Source: Xanthomonas indica
Lineage (GTDB): Bacteria; Pseudomonadota; Gammaproteobacteria; Xanthomonadales; Xanthomonadaceae
NCBI RefSeq assembly: GCF_040529045.1
Contig: NZ_CP131914.1
Coordinates: 1,534,501 to 1,598,500 of the forward strand
Direction: 5' to 3'
DNA length: 64,000 nucleotides
The position numbers were made by a program, and so were the translations under genes. The notes under the pieces are model-generated. The model was not told the DNA's origin. It searched no databases and saw only the letters and a program-made list of their open reading frames with translations. This document shows, piece after piece, positions 43,915 to 52,995 of this stretch. Each line of letters begins with the position of its first letter. Position 1 is the stretch's first letter.

Positions 43915-44300
43915 AGCAGGCGATCGGGCCAGACAGCGCTGCACCGCCTGGCACCTGACTGAAAGATTCGTGCGTTCGACCGCTGCCGCGCCTGCGCGCC
44001 GTGCCATTGCCCCGGTCGCGATCGTTCCGGTCGAGGCGCGGCTGCCCCTGCACTGGACGGAAGCGTAGAACCTGGCGTGACCGCCATTCCACGATGATGG
44101 TGTGTGGTGTGCATCACCGCCTTTGCATCGGGTCTACTGCGATGCATCGGTGCGGCATGCCCGGGCAGGAACCCACTTCGCGCCCGGGCCTCGCGCTGAT
44201 CCATGCCGCTGTGGCGCGCATGGGCCGCATCCCGATCAGTTCTGGAGTTGTGGAGACCGTGAAACCAGGGAAGGCGTTGTGCGGCCGGTCGCGCCGATCC
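43915..44300. other. Intergenic region and uncertain start of the TPR sensor
   Basis: These 386 bp show no separate gene. The TPR-sensor frame is open throughout, and GTG codons at 44250 and 44259 (near GGAG) compete with ATG 44301, so the true start could lie up to about 50 bp into this gap. Confidence 0.5.
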
Positions 44301-46499
44301 ATGGAGACGTGGCACGGTTTGGCCTGGTCCGCCGTTTCCGGCGATCTCGTCCAGGCGCACGTCGCCGCGCCTGGCGCGCGGCCGCGGACATGCCTGCGCT
44401 TGGCGTGCCTGGGCGTGCTGCTTGCGGCGAGTGCGGCCTCGATCGCGCAGAACACGGTGTATGGCTGCGCGGAGCCCGCGGCGCCGCGTCCGCTTCCCGA
44501 TCCGTTGCTGTGCGCGCAGCAGGCGGGCGTGTCGACGCCGCACACGGCGGGCGAAGCGCGGGTCGCGGCATTGTTTGCGCGTGCCAAGGAGCAGCTCGAC
44601 GGCGGCCGCCTCGACGCTGCCGAACAGACGCTCGACTGCGCCGCGGCCAACATCGGCGATGCCGGCGATACCCGCCTGCGCTACGAACTCACCCGCCGCC
44701 GCGGCATTCTCGATTTCCGCCGCGAACGCCTGCCGCAGGCGCTGGCGCGCTTCGAATGTGCGGCCACGCTGTCCCGGTCGTTGCACGACCGCGCCGGCGA
44801 GGCACGCGATCTGAACAATGTGGGGGCGGCGCTGCGCCGGCTCGGCGATTTCCGCGGCGCCCTGCGCCACCTGACGCTGAGCCTGGACCTGCAGCGCGCG
44901 CGCGGCGCGGCGTCGGCGTCCGTGCTCACCAATATCGCCGACGTGTACCGCGAACTGCGCGAGCCCGACACCGCGATGCGCTACTACCGCGAAGCGCTGG
45001 CCGCCAACCGCGCGCAGGGCGACGCCATCGAGGCCGCGCATGTGCAGGAAACCATGGCCGAGCTGGCGCTCGACAGTGGCGACACGGCGCAGGCGCTGGC
45101 CTGGTTGCAGGAAGCGCTGGCCGTGTACGGCGCGCAGGGCCGCCGGGTGTACGAACTGCGTGTGCACGATGGCCTGATCCGCGCGGCACTGGCGCTTGGC
45201 GACGTGGCGCAGGCGCAGCGCTGGAGCTCCAGTGCGCTGGCGCTGGCCGAGGCATGGGCGCTGCCGTTGCCGTCGGCGTTGCAGCTGCAACTGGCGCGGA
45301 CCGCCCGGCTCGAAGGCAATGCCGCCGCCGCCGCGGCACGCTTGCGCGCGGCGCTGGCGGCGGCCGCTGGCGGCGATCCGGTGCGGGTGCCATTGCTGGA
45401 AGAACTGGCACGGCTGCAGGAAAGCAGTGGCGACACGGGCGCGGCCATCGCCACGCTGCGGCGTGCGAACACGGAAGCCGCCGCACTGGTGCGCGCGCAG
45501 CACGATCGCCAGTTGGACTGGCTGCGGGTCCGCTTCGACACCGCCGAAAAGCAGCGCACCATCGACGCCCTGCAGAGCGAAAACCGCCTGCGCCAGGTCC
45601 AGCTGCGCCAGCGCACCTTGCTGCTGTGGCTGGCGCTGGTGTCGGGCGTCGCCGCGGTGCTCGGCGTCTGGCTGTGGCTGCAGCGTCGCCGGCAGCGCGA
45701 GCGCGTGCTGCAGGCCGCGCAGCAGGTCCGCCATGAGGAGCAACTCGCGCGCTATCGCCGAGAGGCCGATGCGCTGGCCGAGGATCGCAGCCTGCTGCAG
45801 ACCCTGCTCGACAGCCGCGAGGATGCGCTGTGCCTGCTCGATGCCGAAGGCCAGGTGCTGGCCACCAATCGTGCCGGCCGCCTGCTGCTTGGCGGCGCGG
45901 ACGCCGCCGAACCGGTCGGGCAGGCGGTGTTCGCCTGCGTTGCCGAGAGCGACCGCCCGGCCTTGCAGGCGGCGCTGGAGCGGATGGAGGACAGCGCCGC
46001 GCAGCGACTGGAGGTCGTGGCGCGGCACGGCACGCCGCTCGCCGCCACCCTCGCGCCCTGGCAGGGCGGCGATGGCCTGGTCGTGCTCGCCCTGCAGGAA
46101 CGCGACAGTGATGCGGGGTCGGACACCGCGCAGGCCGAGGACGTGCACGAGGAGGCCGCTGCGCCTGCGTTGCGCGACGCGTTCCGGCGCGCGCTGGTCG
46201 ACTTGATGCTGGCGGTCATCGATACTTGGGAGCGCGCCACGGCAACGGGCCGGCTGGAGCTGGCCGAGCGCAGCCGGATCTGGCGCGTGAACATCGACGA
46301 CGGCCGCCTGCGCGCGCGAGCGATGGAGCGCTACCTGGCGGTCTCCAAATTGCCCAGCAACCCGCGCTGGCGGGATGTGCTGCGCTCGGCCTATTTCGTG
46401 CTCGCACACTGCGACGGGCTGTCGGCAGAGGCGCGCGCCGCCTTGCAGTCCAGGATCGACACGGTGCTGGCCTACACCCGCCGGGATGCGCTCGGCTGA
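44301..46499 (+). CDS. TPR-PAS membrane sensor with an unassigned C-terminal domain
   Basis: The 732-residue protein has an N-terminal export segment (hydrophobic about residues 33-50), periplasmic tetratricopeptide repeats (about 90-400, for example ALARFECAATLSRSLHDRAGEA and AMRYYREALAANRAQGD), one transmembrane helix (about 440-460), a short coiled coil, and a cytoplasmic PAS-like domain (about 490-600, with EDALCLLDAEGQVLATNRAG). The last 115 residues (ALVDLMLAVIDTWERAT and on) form a distinct helical domain with Trp and Arg clusters. No kinase, GGDEF or DNA-binding motif is present. I recall this end from other xanthomonad TPR proteins, but its output is unknown. Confidence 0.75.
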   Translation: METWHGLAWSAVSGDLVQAHVAAPGARPRTCLRLACLGVLLAASAASIAQNTVYGCAEPAAPRPLPDPLLCAQQAGVSTPHTAGEARVAALFARAKEQLDGGRLDAAEQTLDCAAANIGDAGDTRLRYELTRRRGILDFRRERLPQALARFECAATLSRSLHDRAGEARDLNNVGAALRRLGDFRGALRHLTLSLDLQRARGAASASVLTNIADVYRELREPDTAMRYYREALAANRAQGDAIEAAHVQETMAELALDSGDTAQALAWLQEALAVYGAQGRRVYELRVHDGLIRAALALGDVAQAQRWSSSALALAEAWALPLPSALQLQLARTARLEGNAAAAAARLRAALAAAAGGDPVRVPLLEELARLQESSGDTGAAIATLRRANTEAAALVRAQHDRQLDWLRVRFDTAEKQRTIDALQSENRLRQVQLRQRTLLLWLALVSGVAAVLGVWLWLQRRRQRERVLQAAQQVRHEEQLARYRREADALAEDRSLLQTLLDSREDALCLLDAEGQVLATNRAGRLLLGGADAAEPVGQAVFACVAESDRPALQAALERMEDSAAQRLEVVARHGTPLAATLAPWQGGDGLVVLALQERDSDAGSDTAQAEDVHEEAAAPALRDAFRRALVDLMLAVIDTWERATATGRLELAERSRIWRVNIDDGRLRARAMERYLAVSKLPSNPRWRDVLRSAYFVLAHCDGLSAEARAALQSRIDTVLAYTRRDALG

Positions 46500-46565: not shown

Positions 46566-46952
46566 TCAGCGCCCGCGCTTGGCCGGGCAGACCACGCACG
46601 CGCCCTTCAAGCCTTGTTCCATGCGATAGGTGCTGTGGTGGTCGCGGGCCAGGAAGGTCGTCGGGCCGAGCACGATGGGCTTGGCCGATCGCGAGGGCGC
46701 CACCACCTCGCAATAGGCGGCGATGGTGTTGAGCGTATTGGTGTAGGGCTCGTGGCTATCGACCACCCCGCACTTGTCCATGGTCTGCCGCAACTGCTCG
46801 CCATCGAAATCGAACTTCACCACCACCTCCGGTTCCTGGTCCTGCTCCAGGCACCAGTCCGGTGGCAGGGTGTCGTGGCCGTGGGCGATCAGGGGAAGGG
46901 TCAGCAGCACCGCGACGAGGGCGGTGTAGAAGATGGAGCGGTAGGCAGGCAT
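46566..46952 (-). CDS. Small secreted cysteine-containing protein, unknown
   Basis: The 128-residue protein has a signal peptide (about residues 1-25, ending AHGHD) and a mature part with five cysteines (DWC, DKC, AYC and GACVVC). A central helix FDFDGEQLRQTMDKCGVVDS is the best-preserved part in its decayed copy at 51728-51961. It is not recognised. It is transcribed away from the first of four secreted paralogues, and the 363-bp gap between them matches the gap beside the decayed copy, so the pair moved as a unit. That suggests a linked role with the paralogue family. Confidence 0.7.
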   Translation of the reverse strand: MPAYRSIFYTALVAVLLTLPLIAHGHDTLPPDWCLEQDQEPEVVVKFDFDGEQLRQTMDKCGVVDSHEPYTNTLNTIAAYCEVVAPSRSAKPIVLGPTTFLARDHHSTYRMEQGLKGACVVCPAKRGR

Positions 46953-47132
46953 CGGAATCTCGCAATGCGCAGAGAAGGGACCAGCAGCCTACGAGCGGCG
47001 CCGCGGCGGATGCCAGCGCATCCACGGGTATAGACCGGGAATAAATCCGCCTAACGCATTGATTTCCAGGATGGTGGCATTCGCGCCACAGGTGCAGCGC
47101 GCGCCCGGTGCAGGCCCGCCGCCGCACTCGGC

Positions 47133-47250
47133 CTCGCCAATCCCGCCCGGTTCGTTCCGCGGGCGGCCCGGCTTCGCCCTCGTGCTGCGCCGACGCGCTG
47201 CCTAGCCTGAAATCGCCGGATCGCAGCGTCTGCCGATGCGGCGGTGGCCA
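47133..47250 (+). promoter_or_regulatory. Conserved leader of paralogue 1
   Basis: This stretch aligns with 50428-50550 and 52137-52262, upstream of paralogues 3 and 4. Shared marks are CGCCAAT, CCCGGTTCGTTCC, CCTAGCCTGAAA and GCCGATGCGGCGG. Here the hairpin arm reads CGGATCG instead of CGCATCG, leaving one mismatch to CGATGCG. The rest of 46953-47315 matches the divergent gap at 51962-52323. Confidence 0.6.
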
Positions 47251-47315
47251 TCCCCCGGGGGCGATCCACGTACCCCAGCCATCTCCAATCCCTTCCATAG
47301 AGCGAGAGAACCCTC

Positions 47316-48008
47316 ATGAAGAAGAAGTTCCTTGTCGCAACCGCCCTGCTGGCGGGCAGTGTCGTCGGCGCCCCTGCGCTGGCGGTCGAAAACCCGATGG
47401 ACCAGGCCGGCATCCAGCACAACATGTACCTGGGCTGCCTGATGGAACTCAATGTCTCGGCTGAAGATGCCCTGGCGGTGCTGGTCAAGAAATGTGGCTA
47501 TGCTCCAGGTGTGCCGATCGAGCGGTTCGTTGCCACGCAGCAGCCCATCGTCGATGGCGTCGATCCGACCCGGCCGATGACCGAGAACCTGGCCGGGCTG
47601 CGCCAGCAGCTCAGTGCCTATGAATTCTCGTTCATCGTGCGCATGGACCAGATCGTCGAGAACGCCGAGGATCTGGACGCCGCTGCGGTGCAGTTCGAGG
47701 AACTGGAGCGGGAGGCCATCGCGCGGCTCGATCCCAGGTCGAAGAACGGCGCGCTGATCCTGGGCGGACTGAGCGTGGCCAAGCACTCCAACCGCTACTG
47801 GGCCAATGTCTTGGCCGAGCGTGGCGAGGCCGCGGCGGGTGGCACCGCAGCGAAGAAAAAGGGACGGTTCTGGCGGTGGCTGGCGGTCATCGGATCGGAC
47901 GCGGCCGGCTTCCTACTCACCGAAAATCCCGTCGTCGCGGCCGCCACCTCCAACACGGTCTACGACATCGTCCTTGGCGAGACCACAACGCCCACCCCGG
48001 GAGATTAA
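47316..48008 (+). CDS. Secreted paralogue 1 of a four-copy unknown family
   Basis: The 230-residue protein has a signal peptide (about residues 1-23, ALA-V). The mature N-terminus is ENPMDQAGIQHNMYLGCLM, then KKCGY, giving Cys41 and Cys60 in all four copies. The shared core runs to about residue 172 (RPMTENLAGLRQQLS, AAAVQFEELERE, SKNGALILGGLSV, then RYW). After it the tails diverge: this copy has AAKKKGRFWRWLAVIGSDAAG and a short Thr-rich end, shared in outline only with paralogue 2. No enzyme motif was seen. The family is not recognised. Confidence 0.85.
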   Translation: MKKKFLVATALLAGSVVGAPALAVENPMDQAGIQHNMYLGCLMELNVSAEDALAVLVKKCGYAPGVPIERFVATQQPIVDGVDPTRPMTENLAGLRQQLSAYEFSFIVRMDQIVENAEDLDAAAVQFEELEREAIARLDPRSKNGALILGGLSVAKHSNRYWANVLAERGEAAAGGTAAKKKGRFWRWLAVIGSDAAGFLLTENPVVAAATSNTVYDIVLGETTTPTPGD

Positions 48009-48194
48009 TCCCATTCCGATGACTGTCCAGTTCCGATCCGGACAGTGTCCTGGCGCCGGGCGGCGTTCTGCCGGTGCGATTTTCCCAACGCCCAGAGAAG
48101 AACGGCCTCCCACTGCGCACCGTCGTCGTGGCGTTACGTCGCGGAGTCTGAGCAAGACCACATCGCCACAGCCTTCCCTTGAGAGAACCTATAC

Positions 48195-48875
48195 ATGAAC
48201 AAAAAGTCCCTTGCCGCAAGCCTTGTGCTCTTGGCCGGTGGTGCCGTCGGCGTCCCCGTGCAGGCCGCAGAGAACCCCATGGACCACGCCGGCGTCCAGC
48301 ACAACATGTACCTCGGCTGCCTGATGGACCTGAACCCGTCGCACGACGAGGCGTTGACCGTGCTGATCAAGAAGTGCGGCTACGACCCCGGCATGTCGCT
48401 GGAGCGGTTCATCTCCACGCAGCAGCCGATCATCGATGGGATCGACCCGACCCGGTCGGTGACCGAAAACCTGACGGGACTGCGCCAGCGGTTCAGTGCC
48501 GATGAATTCGCGTTCGTGGTGCGGATCGACCAGATCGTCGAGAATGCCGAGGACCTGGAGGCTGCGGCAGTACAGTTCGAGGAACTGGAGCGCGACGCCA
48601 TGGCAAAGCTCGATCCCACCTCCAAGAACGGCGCGCTGATCCTGGGAGGGTTGAGCGTGGCCAGGCACTCCACGCGTTACTGGTCCAGGCAGGCGGCCGA
48701 AAGCGGTGAGGTTGCGGCAGAGGGCGCGACCTCGAAGAAGAAGGGACGATTCTGGAAGTGGCTGGGCGTCATCGCAGTCGACGTAATGAGCTATTTCGAA
48801 TCGGAAAATCCCGGTACGGCGGCTACGTCCTCCGACGATGCGTACTCACTGTTCTTCGAAGACTTCGGAGTCTGA
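48195..48875 (+). CDS. Secreted paralogue 2
   Basis: The 226-residue protein has a signal peptide ending PVQAAENPMD and the family core with two cysteines (YLGCLMDL and KKCGYDPGM), VTENLTGLRQRFS, AAAVQFEELERD and SKNGALILGGLSVARHS. Its tail (TSKKKGRFWKWLGVIAVDVMS) resembles paralogue 1, then ends differently in an acidic-aromatic stretch (DDAYSLFFEDFGV). It starts 186 bp after paralogue 1 with a leader that does not match the other three, and a clear terminator follows. Function unknown. Confidence 0.85.
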   Translation: MNKKSLAASLVLLAGGAVGVPVQAAENPMDHAGVQHNMYLGCLMDLNPSHDEALTVLIKKCGYDPGMSLERFISTQQPIIDGIDPTRSVTENLTGLRQRFSADEFAFVVRIDQIVENAEDLEAAAVQFEELERDAMAKLDPTSKNGALILGGLSVARHSTRYWSRQAAESGEVAAEGATSKKKGRFWKWLGVIAVDVMSYFESENPGTAATSSDDAYSLFFEDFGV

Positions 48876-48895
48876 TCCGGGTGCTGCCTGGGTAG

Positions 48896-48930
48896 GGGAA
48901 GGGCGCCCTGGTGAGGTGCCTTTCCTTTTT
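48896..48930 (+). terminator. Terminator after paralogue 2
   Basis: GGAAGGGCGCC and GGTGCCTTTCC form a stem with minor mismatches around a short loop and are followed by five T (48926-48930). Confidence 0.8.
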
Positions 48931-49219
48931 GAGTCAGTCGGCCAGCCAAGCCGATGGGTGCTTCATGTTCCGGTGCATGCGCTGTGCGCAACGCCTACTC
49001 GGTCGCCGTCGTGACAGGCACCTTCGTGCAACGCAGCCGAACAGCGTCAGGACTGAAGCCCCTCACACGCCTGCATGCCGCACATTTACAGTTGCTCAAA
49101 CCAGGCCACTGTGGGAGCGGCGTCCGCCCCAAAGGCTGGGTCACCTCTGCCGCTTGCAATGCATCAACACCGCCGCCACCGCCGCGCACCCATCGCCGCA
49201 TCGCTGCTAGCATCGGCCG
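48931..49219. other. Gap between paralogue 2 and the membrane hydrolase
   Basis: Together with the terminator this 344-bp gap contains short open frames only. A half-REP (GTGGGAGCGGCGTCCGCCCC) lies near 49110. No gene is supported. Confidence 0.5.
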
Positions 49220-50293
49220 ATGGATTCCCTTACTCAGATCGTCCTCGGCGGTGCCATTGCCGCCGCCATCGCGCCGGCTGCACATCGGCGTGCGGCACTG
49301 CTCGCCGGTGCCGTACTCGGCACCTTGCCCGATCTCGACTCGCTGATCCTGCTGCCGCTGACCCGCGACCCGGTCACGTTGATGACGGTGCATCGCAGCT
49401 TCAGTCATTCGCTGCTCGTGCTGCCGCTGCTCGGCTGGCTGATCTGGTGGCTGTTCCGCCGCTTCGGCCACGGGCGGGTCGCCGAAGCGCCGCGCCGCTG
49501 GTTCTGGGCGATCCAACTGGCGCTGATCACCCATCCCTTGCTGGATGCGTTCACTGTCTACGGCACACAGCTGTGGTGGCCGCTGCGGCCGCCGCCGACG
49601 ATGTGGTCGAGCGTGTTCATTATCGATCCGGCCTATACGCTGTGGTTGCTGCTGGCTTGCGCCATCGCCTGGTTTGCCCGCGCGCGGCGCGTGGCGCAGC
49701 AGGCGTTGCTTGCCGGACTGCTGTTGAGCAGCGCTTACCTGGGCTGGTCGCTGCTGGCCAAGCAACTGGTCGATCGCGAGGCCGACCGCGCGCTGGCGGC
49801 GATGGGCCTGGCGCAGGCGCCGCGCTTTTCAGTGCCGATGCCGTTCAACACGCTGTTGTGGCGGGTGGTGGCGATGACGCCGAGTGGCTACGTGATTGGC
49901 GAGCGTTCGCTGGTCGCCGATCACGGGCCGATGCGCTTCCAGGGCTATCCCTCCAACACCCAGGCGCTGGCGCAAGTGCGCGACCTGCCGGCGGTGCAGC
50001 GGCTGAGCTGGTTCAATCGCGGTTTCATGCGCGCGCAGGTCAGGGACGGCGAGCTGGTGCTCAGCGACCTGCGCATGGGCCTGGAGCCGGACTACAACTT
50101 CAATTTCGCGGTGGCGCGGCAGCAGGGCGACAGCTGGGAGGCGATGCCGCCGCGGCAGTTGCAGGCCACCTACCGGGCGCCGGAAGCACGTGGGCAGATT
50201 CGGGCAGCGCTGGTGCGGATGTGGCAACGGATCTGGGTCGAACCGGCGTCATCCGCGCCGGTCAGCGCGCAGGCGCCGACAGCGGCGCGTTGA
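49220..50293 (+). CDS. Membrane-bound metal-dependent hydrolase-like protein (DUF457/YdjM type)
   Basis: The 357-residue inner-membrane protein starts MDSLTQIVLGGAIAAA, followed by GAVLGTLPDLDSL and HRSFSHSLLVLPL, the DUF457 signature with conserved Asp and His residues that could bind a metal. Four or five transmembrane helices follow (about residues 5-200), with HPLLDAFTVYGTQLW. A soluble C-terminal part (about 210-357) ends in MGLEPDYNFNFAV and an Ala/Pro tail. A broken copy of its last 70 codons lies at 51474-51690. It sits between secreted paralogues 2 and 3, so it marks one edge of the duplicated segment. Confidence 0.85.
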   Translation: MDSLTQIVLGGAIAAAIAPAAHRRAALLAGAVLGTLPDLDSLILLPLTRDPVTLMTVHRSFSHSLLVLPLLGWLIWWLFRRFGHGRVAEAPRRWFWAIQLALITHPLLDAFTVYGTQLWWPLRPPPTMWSSVFIIDPAYTLWLLLACAIAWFARARRVAQQALLAGLLLSSAYLGWSLLAKQLVDREADRALAAMGLAQAPRFSVPMPFNTLLWRVVAMTPSGYVIGERSLVADHGPMRFQGYPSNTQALAQVRDLPAVQRLSWFNRGFMRAQVRDGELVLSDLRMGLEPDYNFNFAVARQQGDSWEAMPPRQLQATYRAPEARGQIRAALVRMWQRIWVEPASSAPVSAQAPTAAR

Positions 50294-50427
50294 GCGCGGC
50301 ACACAATCGACCGAGGCATGGCGCGCCCTCATTGGGGAACGAATCGGCGCAAGCATTAATTCTTCGATCATGGAGCGCCCGCTGCAAGCCAGGGCCGTGT
50401 CTCCGCACTGCAGCGGTGATGTCCAGT

Positions 50428-50550
50428 TCGCCAATTCGACCCGGTTCGTTCCCGTCGCGACCCGGTTCCGCCCTCGTGTGTCGCCGCAGACCGGCCTAAC
50501 TTGAAACCGTCGCATCGCGCCGTGTGCCGATGCGGCGGTGGTCGCCTCGC
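50428..50550 (+). promoter_or_regulatory. Conserved leader of paralogue 3
   Basis: This block is almost base-for-base like 52137-52262. It contains an exact 7-bp inverted repeat, CGCATCG (50512-50518) and CGATGCG (50529-50535), with a 10-nt loop, about 85 bp before the start codon. The gap 50294-50618 otherwise holds only the remains of the divergent promoter segment (GGAACGAATCGGCGCAAGC near 50338). Confidence 0.6.
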
Positions 50551-50618
50551 ATGGGATCCCCTCAGGAACGTCGGGAGACCTGGGCCATCCTCTTTCCATC
50601 CATTGCATGAGAATATTC

Positions 50619-51317
50619 ATGAACAAAACGCTTTTTGGCGCGACCGCCGCCCTCCTGATCTGTAGCGCCTTTGGCGCCGCCCCCGCGCTGGCAGCCGAGA
50701 ACCCGATGGACCAGGCGGGCATCCAGCACAACATGTACCTCGGCTGCTTGATGGACACCAAGGCCTCGCCCGACGATGCGCTGGTCGTCCTGGTCGAGAA
50801 GTGCGGTTACGACCCCGGCATGCCGCTGGAGCGCTTCATCGCCACGCGCAAGCCCATGATCGATGCAATCGATCCGACACGGCCGATGACCGAGAACTTG
50901 GCCGGGCTACGCCAAGAACTCAGTGCCTACGAGTTCTCGTTCATCGCGCGGATGGACCAGATCGTGCAGAACGCCGGGAGCCTGGACGCGGCGGCGGTGC
51001 AATTCGAGGAATTGGAACGGGAAGGCATCGCGCGACTCGACCCCAAGTCGAAGAATGGCGCGCTGGTTCTCGGCGGGCTGAGCGTGCTCAGACACTCCGC
51101 GCGCTACTGGTCGAAATTTGCGGCGGATACCACGTCGAAATACGCTGGGTCTCCGGATCCATACAATGCATGGATGATGGTCGTAGCGTACGACGTAATG
51201 GGTTGTCTCGTCTTTAATAACGCCGAATTGGCGTCTTTAACCTCCTATATAGGCTTTTATATACTCGTCTCACAAGGATATTTCCCGCTCTACGCAGACC
51301 AAGAGCTCTCCCTCTGA
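50619..51317 (+). CDS. Secreted paralogue 3
   Basis: The 232-residue protein has a signal peptide ending ALAAENPMDQAG and the full family core (YLGCLMDT, EKCGYDPGM, RPMTENLAGLRQELS, AAAVQFEELEREG, SKNGALVLGGLSV). Its tail differs from copies 1 and 2: TSKYAGSPDPYNAWMMVVAY followed by DVMGCLVF and a hydrophobic run to SQGYFPLYADQELSL, shared in pattern with paralogue 4. The coding sequence for this tail (about 51185-51300) is strikingly AT-rich against the window, which hints at recombination or transfer of the 3' end. Function unknown. Confidence 0.85.
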   Translation: MNKTLFGATAALLICSAFGAAPALAAENPMDQAGIQHNMYLGCLMDTKASPDDALVVLVEKCGYDPGMPLERFIATRKPMIDAIDPTRPMTENLAGLRQELSAYEFSFIARMDQIVQNAGSLDAAAVQFEELEREGIARLDPKSKNGALVLGGLSVLRHSARYWSKFAADTTSKYAGSPDPYNAWMMVVAYDVMGCLVFNNAELASLTSYIGFYILVSQGYFPLYADQELSL

Positions 51318-51344
51318 GCCTGCCTCTGGTGGTACAGATAAAGG

Positions 51345-51372
51345 AAGGCGTTCCCGTCGGGACGCCTTTTTT
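51345..51372 (+). terminator. Terminator after paralogue 3
   Basis: AAGGCG-TTCCC and GGGACGCCTT form a strong stem with a 3-nt loop, followed by six T. A sequence-related terminator follows paralogue 4. Confidence 0.88.
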
Positions 51373-51473
51373 ATCAGATAGAAAAGGCGCCATGTCGCCA
51401 CTGTTCTGACGTGCAGGCGGCACTGATCCACGTTTCTGAAGGTGGCTGAGCTAGGCCTTCTCTGCATCGCTAG

Positions 51474-51690
51474 CAGAGTTGGTGCTCAGAGGCCTACACA
51501 TGGGCCTGGAGCCGGACTACAACTTCAACTTCGCCGCAGCTGCCGGCCGCGTACCGGACGCCGGTGGCACGTGGGCAGATCCGCGCAGTGCTGGCGCGGA
51601 TGTGGCAACGGATCTGAGTAGAGCCGGCGTTGCCCGCGCCGGTCGACGCGCGGGGGCCGGCAGCAGCGCGTTGAGCACGGCGCGATAAGC
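51474..51690 (+). pseudogene. 3' fragment of the DUF457 membrane-protein gene
   Basis: From about 51474 the sequence matches the DUF457 gene from about 50052 to its end: TTGGTGCTCAG, then MGLEPDYNFNFA is preserved, a stretch is deleted, and GTGGGCAGAT and GTGGCAACGGATCTG recur before a matching GCGCGTTGAGC end. No start codon or membrane part is present. It is the left end of a second copy of the duplicated segment. Confidence 0.85.
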
Positions 51691-51727
51691 CGTAGCGTGA
51701 TGCGCCTTCATCGCCGACGCGGAGTCG

Positions 51728-51961
51728 CGAGGCGGCGGTCATCGCCAGGGCGCTTGAGGACGGCTCTCGGTGGTCGGCCGCCCCGCATGTGTCCATCAGT
51801 TGCCGGAGCTGTTCCCTGTCGAGATCGACCTTCTTCCCCTGTTCGGCTCCCGGTCCTGCTCCAGTCACCCGTCCGGTGGCGGCAGGGTGCCGAGGGCGTA
51901 GCGGTCGCGGGCGGGGTCAGAGAGGCGCGATGAAGCGCATGGATGGCGGGGCGGCAGGCAT
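51728..51961 (-). pseudogene. Decayed copy of the small secreted cysteine protein gene
   Basis: The minus strand preserves KVDLDREQLRQLMDTCGAADH, close to KFDFDGEQLRQTMDKCGVVDS of the intact gene at 46566-46952, and the segment around the start codon (GGCAGGCATCGGA) also matches. The signal peptide is frameshifted and the C-terminal third has gone. Its position relative to paralogue 4 mirrors the intact pair beside paralogue 1. Confidence 0.8.
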
Positions 51962-52136
51962 CGGAGTTCTCCCGACGCAAGAGAGGGGATCGGCAGCCTA
52001 AGCGGCGGTGCCACGGATTCCAGCGCATCTGCGGGTATGGATTGGGAACGAATCGGCATAAGGCATTGATTCCTTGATCATGGGTGCCCACCGCGCGGCA
52101 GGACAAGGTTTGCGCGATGCGGCGGCGGTGCCATCG

Positions 52137-52262
52137 CCTCGCCAATTCGACCCGGTTCGTTCCCGTCGCGACCCGATTTTGCCCTCGTGCGTCGCCGCAG
52201 ACCCGCCTAGCCTGAAACCGTCGCATCGCGTCGTGTGCCGATGCGGTGTCGTCGCCTCGCCT
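52137..52262 (+). promoter_or_regulatory. Conserved leader of paralogue 4
   Basis: It matches the paralogue 3 leader closely, with the same inverted repeat CGCATCG (52222-52228) and CGATGCG (52239-52245). The segment 51962-52136 aligns with the divergent gap upstream of paralogue 1 (for example CAGCGCATC, GGGTATGGATTGGGAA, GCATTGATT). Confidence 0.6.
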
Positions 52263-52323
52263 GGGTCCGTCGCAGGAACGTCGGAGATCTGGCTCACCCT
52301 CCATCCATTGCATGAGAACGTTG

Positions 52324-52995
52324 ATGAATACGAAGCTCTTTGTCGCGACCGCCACCCTCTTGATCAACAGTGCCTTCGGCACCACCCCCGTGCAGGCGGC
52401 CGAGAATCCGCTCGATCAGGTAGGCATTCAGCACAACATGTACCTGGGCTGCCTGATGGACGCGAAAGCCTCGCGCGACGAGGCCCTGGCCGTCCTGGTC
52501 GAGAAGTGCGGCTACAATCCCGGCATGCCGCTGGAGCGCTTCATCGCCACGCACCAGCCCATGATCGATGCAATCGATCCGCTCCGGCCGATGACCGAAA
52601 ACCTGGTCGAGCTGCGCCAACAACTCAGTGACTACGAGTTCTCGTTCATCGTGCGAATGGACCAGATCGTGCAGAACACCGAGAGCCTGGACGCGGCGGC
52701 GGTGCAATTCGAGGAATTGGAACGGGAAGGCATCGCGCGGCTCGATCCCAAGTCGAAAAATGGCGCGCTGGTGCTGAGCGCGCTGAGCGTGGTCAGACAT
52801 TCCGCGCGCTATTGGTCTAAATTTTCGGCCGGCACCACGTCGAAACCGGACCCGAAAAAGGGCTGGGCGATTGTCTCAGTGTGCGATGCAATGGGCGCGC
52901 TCTTCTTTGGCAGCAGCGAGATGGCGGCTTCCGCCTCGTATTCGGCCTATCAAGAACTCGCTTCGCAGGGATATTTCCCACTCTACGCAAACTGA
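52324..52995 (+). CDS. Secreted paralogue 4
   Basis: The 223-residue protein has a signal peptide ending PVQAAENPLDQVG and the family core (YLGCLMDA, EKCGYNPGM, AAAVQFEELEREG, SKNGALVLSALSVVRHS). The tail TSKPDPKKGWAIVSVCDAMGA to LASQGYFPLYAN follows paralogue 3 in outline but differs at many positions. An extra cysteine (VSVCDAMG) appears in the tail. The ATG at 52324 matches the start used in the other copies. A terminator follows. Function unknown. Confidence 0.85.
   Translation: MNTKLFVATATLLINSAFGTTPVQAAENPLDQVGIQHNMYLGCLMDAKASRDEALAVLVEKCGYNPGMPLERFIATHQPMIDAIDPLRPMTENLVELRQQLSDYEFSFIVRMDQIVQNTESLDAAAVQFEELEREGIARLDPKSKNGALVLSALSVVRHSARYWSKFSAGTTSKPDPKKGWAIVSVCDAMGALFFGSSEMAASASYSAYQELASQGYFPLYAN

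Follow-up and report, generated by a model that had tools for sequence, protein, structure and literature searches.

A tandem array of predicted exported helical proteins with fast-changing tails in Xanthomonas indica

Polymorphic effector families combine a constant front with an exchanged tail, Rap1a/Tai immunity proteins are small, exported and marked by conserved cysteines, and members of the fulvocin C-related family carry a cysteine-rich mature peptide at the C-terminus. Here, we describe a four-copy array of small proteins in a 64,000-nucleotide stretch of the Xanthomonas indica genome (NZ_CP131914.1, positions 1,534,501 to 1,598,500; this whole stretch is hereafter the window). The array resembles polymorphic effectors in its constant core, in the recombined tail of copy 1 and in the gene remnants beside it, but differs from them in encoding small single-fold proteins with no large carrier and no recognised toxin domain; an exchanged tail behind a conserved front was found for copy 1 only. 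Like Rap1a/Tai proteins (PF18602), the family proteins are small and export-like with conserved cysteines, and neither the four window copies nor any of 25 aligned family members matches PF18602 at an expectation value (E) <= 10. The genome's one PF18602 match over cut-off is a separate gene outside the window (G000:C1:1020588-1020833). Unlike the fulvocin C-related family, all 25 members have tails holding 0-2 cysteines and no cysteine-rich C-terminal peptide. We find that tandem duplication of a three-gene unit built up the array, and that the C-terminal tail changes about four times faster than the core in two sets of orthologs.

The array consists of the following genes, given in window coordinates:

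47316..48008, forward strand: copy 1, type A1, a mosaic gene encoding a 230-residue family protein (open reading frame and alignment)
48195..48875, forward strand: copy 2, type A2, 226 residues, with orthologs in 2 of 9 other genus genomes compared (G085 and G111)
50619..51317, forward strand: copy 3, type B, 232 residues (structure model m4c3a1557dd94)
52324..52995, forward strand: copy 4, type B, 223 residues, with an 815-nt segment 84.7% identical to copy 3

An original prediction, made from the DNA letters alone, had placed four genes for proteins of 223-232 residues at these positions, sharing several motifs and two fixed cysteines and falling into two subtypes (copies 1-2 and copies 3-4) with further variation inside each. 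Coordinates and lengths proved correct, and the motifs ENPxDxxGxQHNMYLGCLM, (K/E)KCGY, AAAVQFEELER, SKNGAL and RYW are present in all four copies. Each copy has exactly two cysteines in the core, which probably form a disulfide that we infer to staple the fold. The division into subtypes also stands: copies 3 and 4 fall in a clade of eight rows supported at 100/100, together with genes of six other genomes, and copy 2 stands apart from copy 1 too. In the alignment, copies 2-4 share 60-64% identity with copy 1, and the likeness of the four is not due to chance, since pairwise E-values run from 6e-75 to 2e-105 and nucleotide repeats reach ~1.0 kb. In the 4.81-Mb genome, these four genes are the only matches at E <= 0.01. 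Judged by eye, their N-termini have a charged start followed by a hydrophobic run and an AxA-type end, and the family proteins are likely exported.

Database searches agree with the prediction that the family is unrecognised. In Pfam and NCBIfam, no profile passed its cut-off with any window copy or any of the 25 aligned members; PHROGs, searched with the four window copies, and PADLOC, searched with two of them and two relatives, returned nothing convincing; the only matches among PDB sequences were four designed proteins (best E 0.013); and viral contigs scanned by pattern contained no relative. Spread searches built on the 25-member alignment reveal a patchy distribution. Of the 198 genomes sampled from the bacterial family, 16 carry a match (in G170 a fragment only); in the order the figure is 12 of 348, G170 again among them together with G610, which belongs to a different family; and across 398 genomes of the phylum the window's own is the single hit. 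Copy number across 20 Xanthomonas genomes ranges from 0 to 4: full-length genes occur in 10 (four copies in one, two in eight, one in one), a fragment only in 2, and no match in 8. Named relatives come from Lysobacter antibioticus, Luteimonas aquatica, Xanthomonas sp. F10, X. bonasiae, Stenotrophomonas chelatiphaga, S. pennii and a Lysobacter metagenome-assembled genome.

The AlphaFold model of copy 3 (m4c3a1557dd94) is all-helical, with a mean predicted local distance difference test score (pLDDT) of 86.5 and a predicted template modelling score of 0.82. Its tail forms two confident helices, residues 181-199 and 202-218 (block pLDDT ~89-96), that pack in the predicted fold, so that the tail is not predicted to be a free module. 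We compared rates of change using 21 of 23 full-length genes, with outgroups L035 and L036 left out and genomes holding only fragments (G170 and G597) excluded. For type A1 orthologs (10 genes, 45 pairs, 43 of them usable for the tail), the median ratio of nonsynonymous to synonymous substitution rates (dN/dS) goes from 0.26 for the core to 0.64 for the tail; for type B orthologs (8 genes, 28 pairs), the values are 0.21 and 0.64, respectively. Mean dN rises from 0.118 in the core to 0.449 in the tail in A1 and from 0.070 to 0.297 in B, and per-column difference rises from 0.20 to 0.50 and from 0.14 to 0.41 (permutation p <= 5e-5 each). In types A1 and B, then, the predicted combination of a conserved core and a diversifying tail holds. 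The tails are nonetheless not free to vary, since the type B end, GYFPLYA, is well conserved.

Copy 1 carries the clearest trace of how a tail can change. We compared it at informative sites with a close relative, L037 from G058 (the nearest relative of the window genome, called the same species), and a distant one, L066 from G085; the split between core and tail was fixed beforehand, and that between front and back of the core was placed after seeing the identities. Sites like G058 outnumber sites like G085 by 34 to 9 in the front of the core, stand at 11 to 15 in its back, and fall to 9 against 38 in the tail. This core-against-tail switch has p 1.4e-6, p lies between 4e-5 and 1e-7 in the three other pairings, and a control gene (L072_9319) has no switch (p 0.58 and 0.78). 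Against G058, stretches of gnat, lpxH, the 3' end of the neighbouring TPR gene and a methyltransferase gene are 95-98% identical, the small gene next to copy 1 (the small partner, below) 92% and a YdjM-type gene 95%, with the copy 1 core at 90-91% and its tail at 71% over 98 nt. Against G085 and G111, the outer genes are 84-92% identical (68% over 128 nt for one G111 methyltransferase stretch), the small partner 77-81% and the front of copy 1 80-81% (the best G111 match lying in its A2-type gene), and identity reaches 92% in the second half of the copy 1 core and 83-84% over 159 nt of tail. Against G134, identity is 96% across the small partner and intergenic region and falls to 82% where copy 1 begins. 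In a full-length tree copy 1 groups with G085 and G111 (97/93); in a core-only tree it groups with closer genomes (83/91, below our support mark). The simplest reading of these sequences is that the back of copy 1 came by recombination from a G085/G111-like lineage. Copy 2, common only to G085 and G111 among the genomes compared, was perhaps acquired from such a lineage in the same way.

The array as a whole grew by tandem duplication of a unit consisting of small partner, family gene and YdjM-type gene. Its traces are the following:

46759..47778, unstranded: duplicated segment spanning the front of the small partner, the intergenic region and the front of the family gene; its counterpart in self-comparison is 51774-52792, 74.5% identical
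50331..51140, unstranded: duplicated segment; pairs with 52041-52845 at 84.7% in self-comparison
49220..50293, forward strand: YdjM-type inner-membrane protein gene, a passenger of the duplicated unit
51476..51681, forward strand: decayed remnant of a YdjM-type gene, two pieces in different frames with a stop inside
51731..51879, reverse strand: decayed remnant of a small partner gene, two pieces with a stop inside
47217-47240, unstranded: inverted repeat before copy 1, same element as the next with one mismatch
50511..50534, unstranded: inverted repeat CGCATCG-N10-CGATGCG, 84 bp before copy 3
52222-52245, unstranded: inverted repeat before copy 4, same element

Both remnants sit between copies 3 and 4, and like remnants surround a type B gene in G058, G134 and G594. 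From these remnants and the repeats between and around the copies, it follows that the unit was duplicated, and that passenger copies decayed while the family genes remained open. That the family genes are intact where their passengers decayed points to selection on them, without indicating its kind. The inverted repeats, 75-84 bp before copies 1, 3 and 4, may possibly be an operator, or promoter sequence inherited with the unit. Two other loci, L074 and L075 (G170 and G597), have only a short family-gene fragment, and the TPR gene, small partner and usual flanking genes were unmatched in the 16-kb stretch fetched. At L080 (G116) and L078 (G173), two family genes lie close together, away from the TPR and small partner pair; at L080, transposase-like open reading frames (ORFs), judged by eye, adjoin them.

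Upstream of copy 1 lie two genes that recur beside the family:

44001..46499, forward strand: TPR protein gene, convergent with the small partner; TPR repeats, a PAS domain and one hydrophobic segment by eye, with the true start probably downstream of 44001
46566..46952, reverse strand: small partner gene, 128 residues, divergent from copy 1 (sequence reading)

The order TPR gene, small partner (on the opposite strand), family gene is found in 16 genomes including the window's, and the outer flanks differ in 5 of these (L035, L039, L041, L082 and L083); at L082, a second small partner and another ORF intervene. In the sample of 198, every one of the 15 genomes with a full-length family gene also has a small partner, against 27 of 198 overall (Fisher p 1.4e-15, uncorrected for kinship), located elsewhere in the genome in five of the 15 (G090, G115, G116, G138 and G173). 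Of 303 genomes searched across the class, only the window's own yielded the small partner. From 13 of the 27 genomes with a small partner, we fetched 14 further loci (L159-L172), and at all 14 the small partner and a TPR gene are arranged tail to tail, one pair at L168 being ~2.7 kb apart. The divergent side, taken at the array by the family gene, is occupied there by a subtilase (L160), a protein with a sub-cut-off match to DUF6289 (L168) or unnamed small proteins (L159, L163-L165, L167 and L170), and several of these ORFs have export-like starts; no such ORF was seen at L161, L162, L166, L169, L171 or L172. Among ten divergent ORFs searched against Pfam, the subtilase alone scored above cut-off. 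L167 holds three TPR/small-partner pairs in 19 kb.

The window's small partner is export-like by eye, with a presumed mature N-terminal histidine, an HH pair and five cysteines. With cleavage placed by eye, the mature protein begins with histidine in all 28 sequences of its family, which has a CxxC-like end (loci L035-L039, L041, L066-L073, L082, L083 and L159-L172). We aligned 23 of the 28, dropping L037 as a near-duplicate and leaving out L162, L166, L170 and L171 for uncertain start or distance, and in these the N-terminal histidine, HH and three cysteines are invariant, with two more cysteines nearly so. The window member has no Pfam or PDB match, and NCBIfam gave one weak match (E 0.015) over the 23 members. 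The small partner is a candidate N-terminal-histidine metal protein. In the part of the literature consulted, histidine-brace and other N-terminal-histidine metalloproteins include CopC, LPMO, DUF4198 and DUF6702 (PMC12537917); the small partner resembles those described there in its presumed mature N-terminal histidine and conserved HH, and differs in its several conserved cysteines and in the lack of a Pfam match for the window member.

We tentatively propose that the family proteins are exported effectors linked to a sensor, which probably serve in competition between bacteria and whose helical tail seeks membranes and can be exchanged. The core would be the constant fold of an exported, all-helical protein, and the last two helices a hydrophobic hairpin that evolves fast and could be replaced by recombination; this hairpin would be the active part, acting on the membrane, or on a membrane protein, of a rival bacterium. 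The family protein would be the output of the neighbouring sensing unit, formed by the TPR-PAS membrane protein and the small His/Cys protein, and the same unit would face other exported proteins elsewhere. Membrane action, antagonism and control by the TPR protein are all inferred. Many members outside Xanthomonas do have hydrophobic, Gly/Ala-rich tails: the best 19-residue Kyte-Doolittle mean reaches 2.17, and it is >= 1.6 in 7 of 25 members, none from Xanthomonas. Sub-cut-off matches to NF033852 (fulvocin C-related bacteriocin), in 3 of 25 members at E <= 10 with the best in L017 (E 0.0015, 19.4 bits against a cut-off of 35), also lean this way.

Several observations weigh against this proposal. 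The window copies' own tails are only mildly hydrophobic (0.56-1.27). The NF033852 matches fall below the cut-off, the one range shown (L017, residues 72-154) lies in the core, and none of the four window copies matches this profile. Such weak matches mean little, since an unrelated profile, NF047414, weakly matches more members (6 of 25, best E 0.0037), the one range shown covering the signal-like N-terminus. No immunity gene per copy is obvious after the window copies or at the mapped loci, where short ORFs were left unassessed. The family gene lies away from the TPR gene and small partner in 7 genomes (L040, G090, G173, G138, G116, G115 and G610), and both were looked for near the G610 copy and are absent. 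As to rates, the three type A2 pairs run opposite to the prediction (dN/dS 0.31 in the core, 0.13 in the tail); tail dN/dS stays below 1, leaving positive selection unsupported; tail dS is raised as well (0.75 against 0.44 in the A1 core), so saturation or homogenised cores may distort the ratios; and the faster tail may reflect mere relaxed constraint.

Among the alternatives, the proteins could instead act protectively in the periplasm, as immunity-like proteins or decoys, their variable tails fitting a range of incoming toxins and no cognate toxins being encoded alongside. We regard this as doubtful: a paralogue array with export-like starts, diverse and exchanged tails and patchy spread would suit it, as would the lack, by eye, of an obvious secretion-system or toxin gene beside the window copies, but no Rap1a/Tai-type or other immunity profile is among the matches, the genome's one Rap1a-family protein is located elsewhere, and the loci read revealed no recognisable toxin partner, with few of the ORFs around them compared with profile libraries. 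A role in envelope homeostasis strikes us as no less questionable. An exported helical protein would then be induced through the TPR-PAS protein, which perhaps senses metal or redox stress with the small His/Cys protein; the linkage to a sensor-like protein with a candidate metal-binding partner and the conserved core speak for it, but half of the genus has no full-length gene, and copy number and tails turn over quickly. That the proteins are type II-secreted to act on a plant or another eukaryotic host, whose pressure would bear on the tails, is very unlikely, for although Xanthomonas lives on plants and the export-like start and fast tail would fit, records of Luteimonas, Lysobacter and Stenotrophomonas contain the family too, 10 of 20 genus genomes have no full-length gene, and no eukaryote-like domain scored over cut-off.

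Returning to the proposal of a sensor-linked effector, a broader and rather improbable extension is that the locus represents an undescribed exchange platform in Xanthomonadaceae. The TPR-PAS membrane protein and the small exported protein with its N-terminal histidine and HH/Cys ligands would make up a constant pair, tail to tail, for sensing, perhaps of copper or redox, and interchangeable exported cargo would fill the slot on the divergent side. Here that cargo would be a new helical family, present in four copies after amplification, and intragenic recombination would swap its membrane-seeking C-terminal hairpins between lineages. The array is a small and experimentally tractable example of an exported protein that keeps its fold and exchanges its end, and its relatives represent various stages, from 0 to 4 copies and from intact to mosaic to decayed. 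If the TPR and small partner pair does drive varied cargo, it would amount to a new cassette regulating exported bacterial weapons or envelope proteins, with the small partner as a new candidate for an N-terminal-histidine metal site. If the explanation is more ordinary, an unannotated family has been described, and its array explained by tandem duplication and passenger decay.

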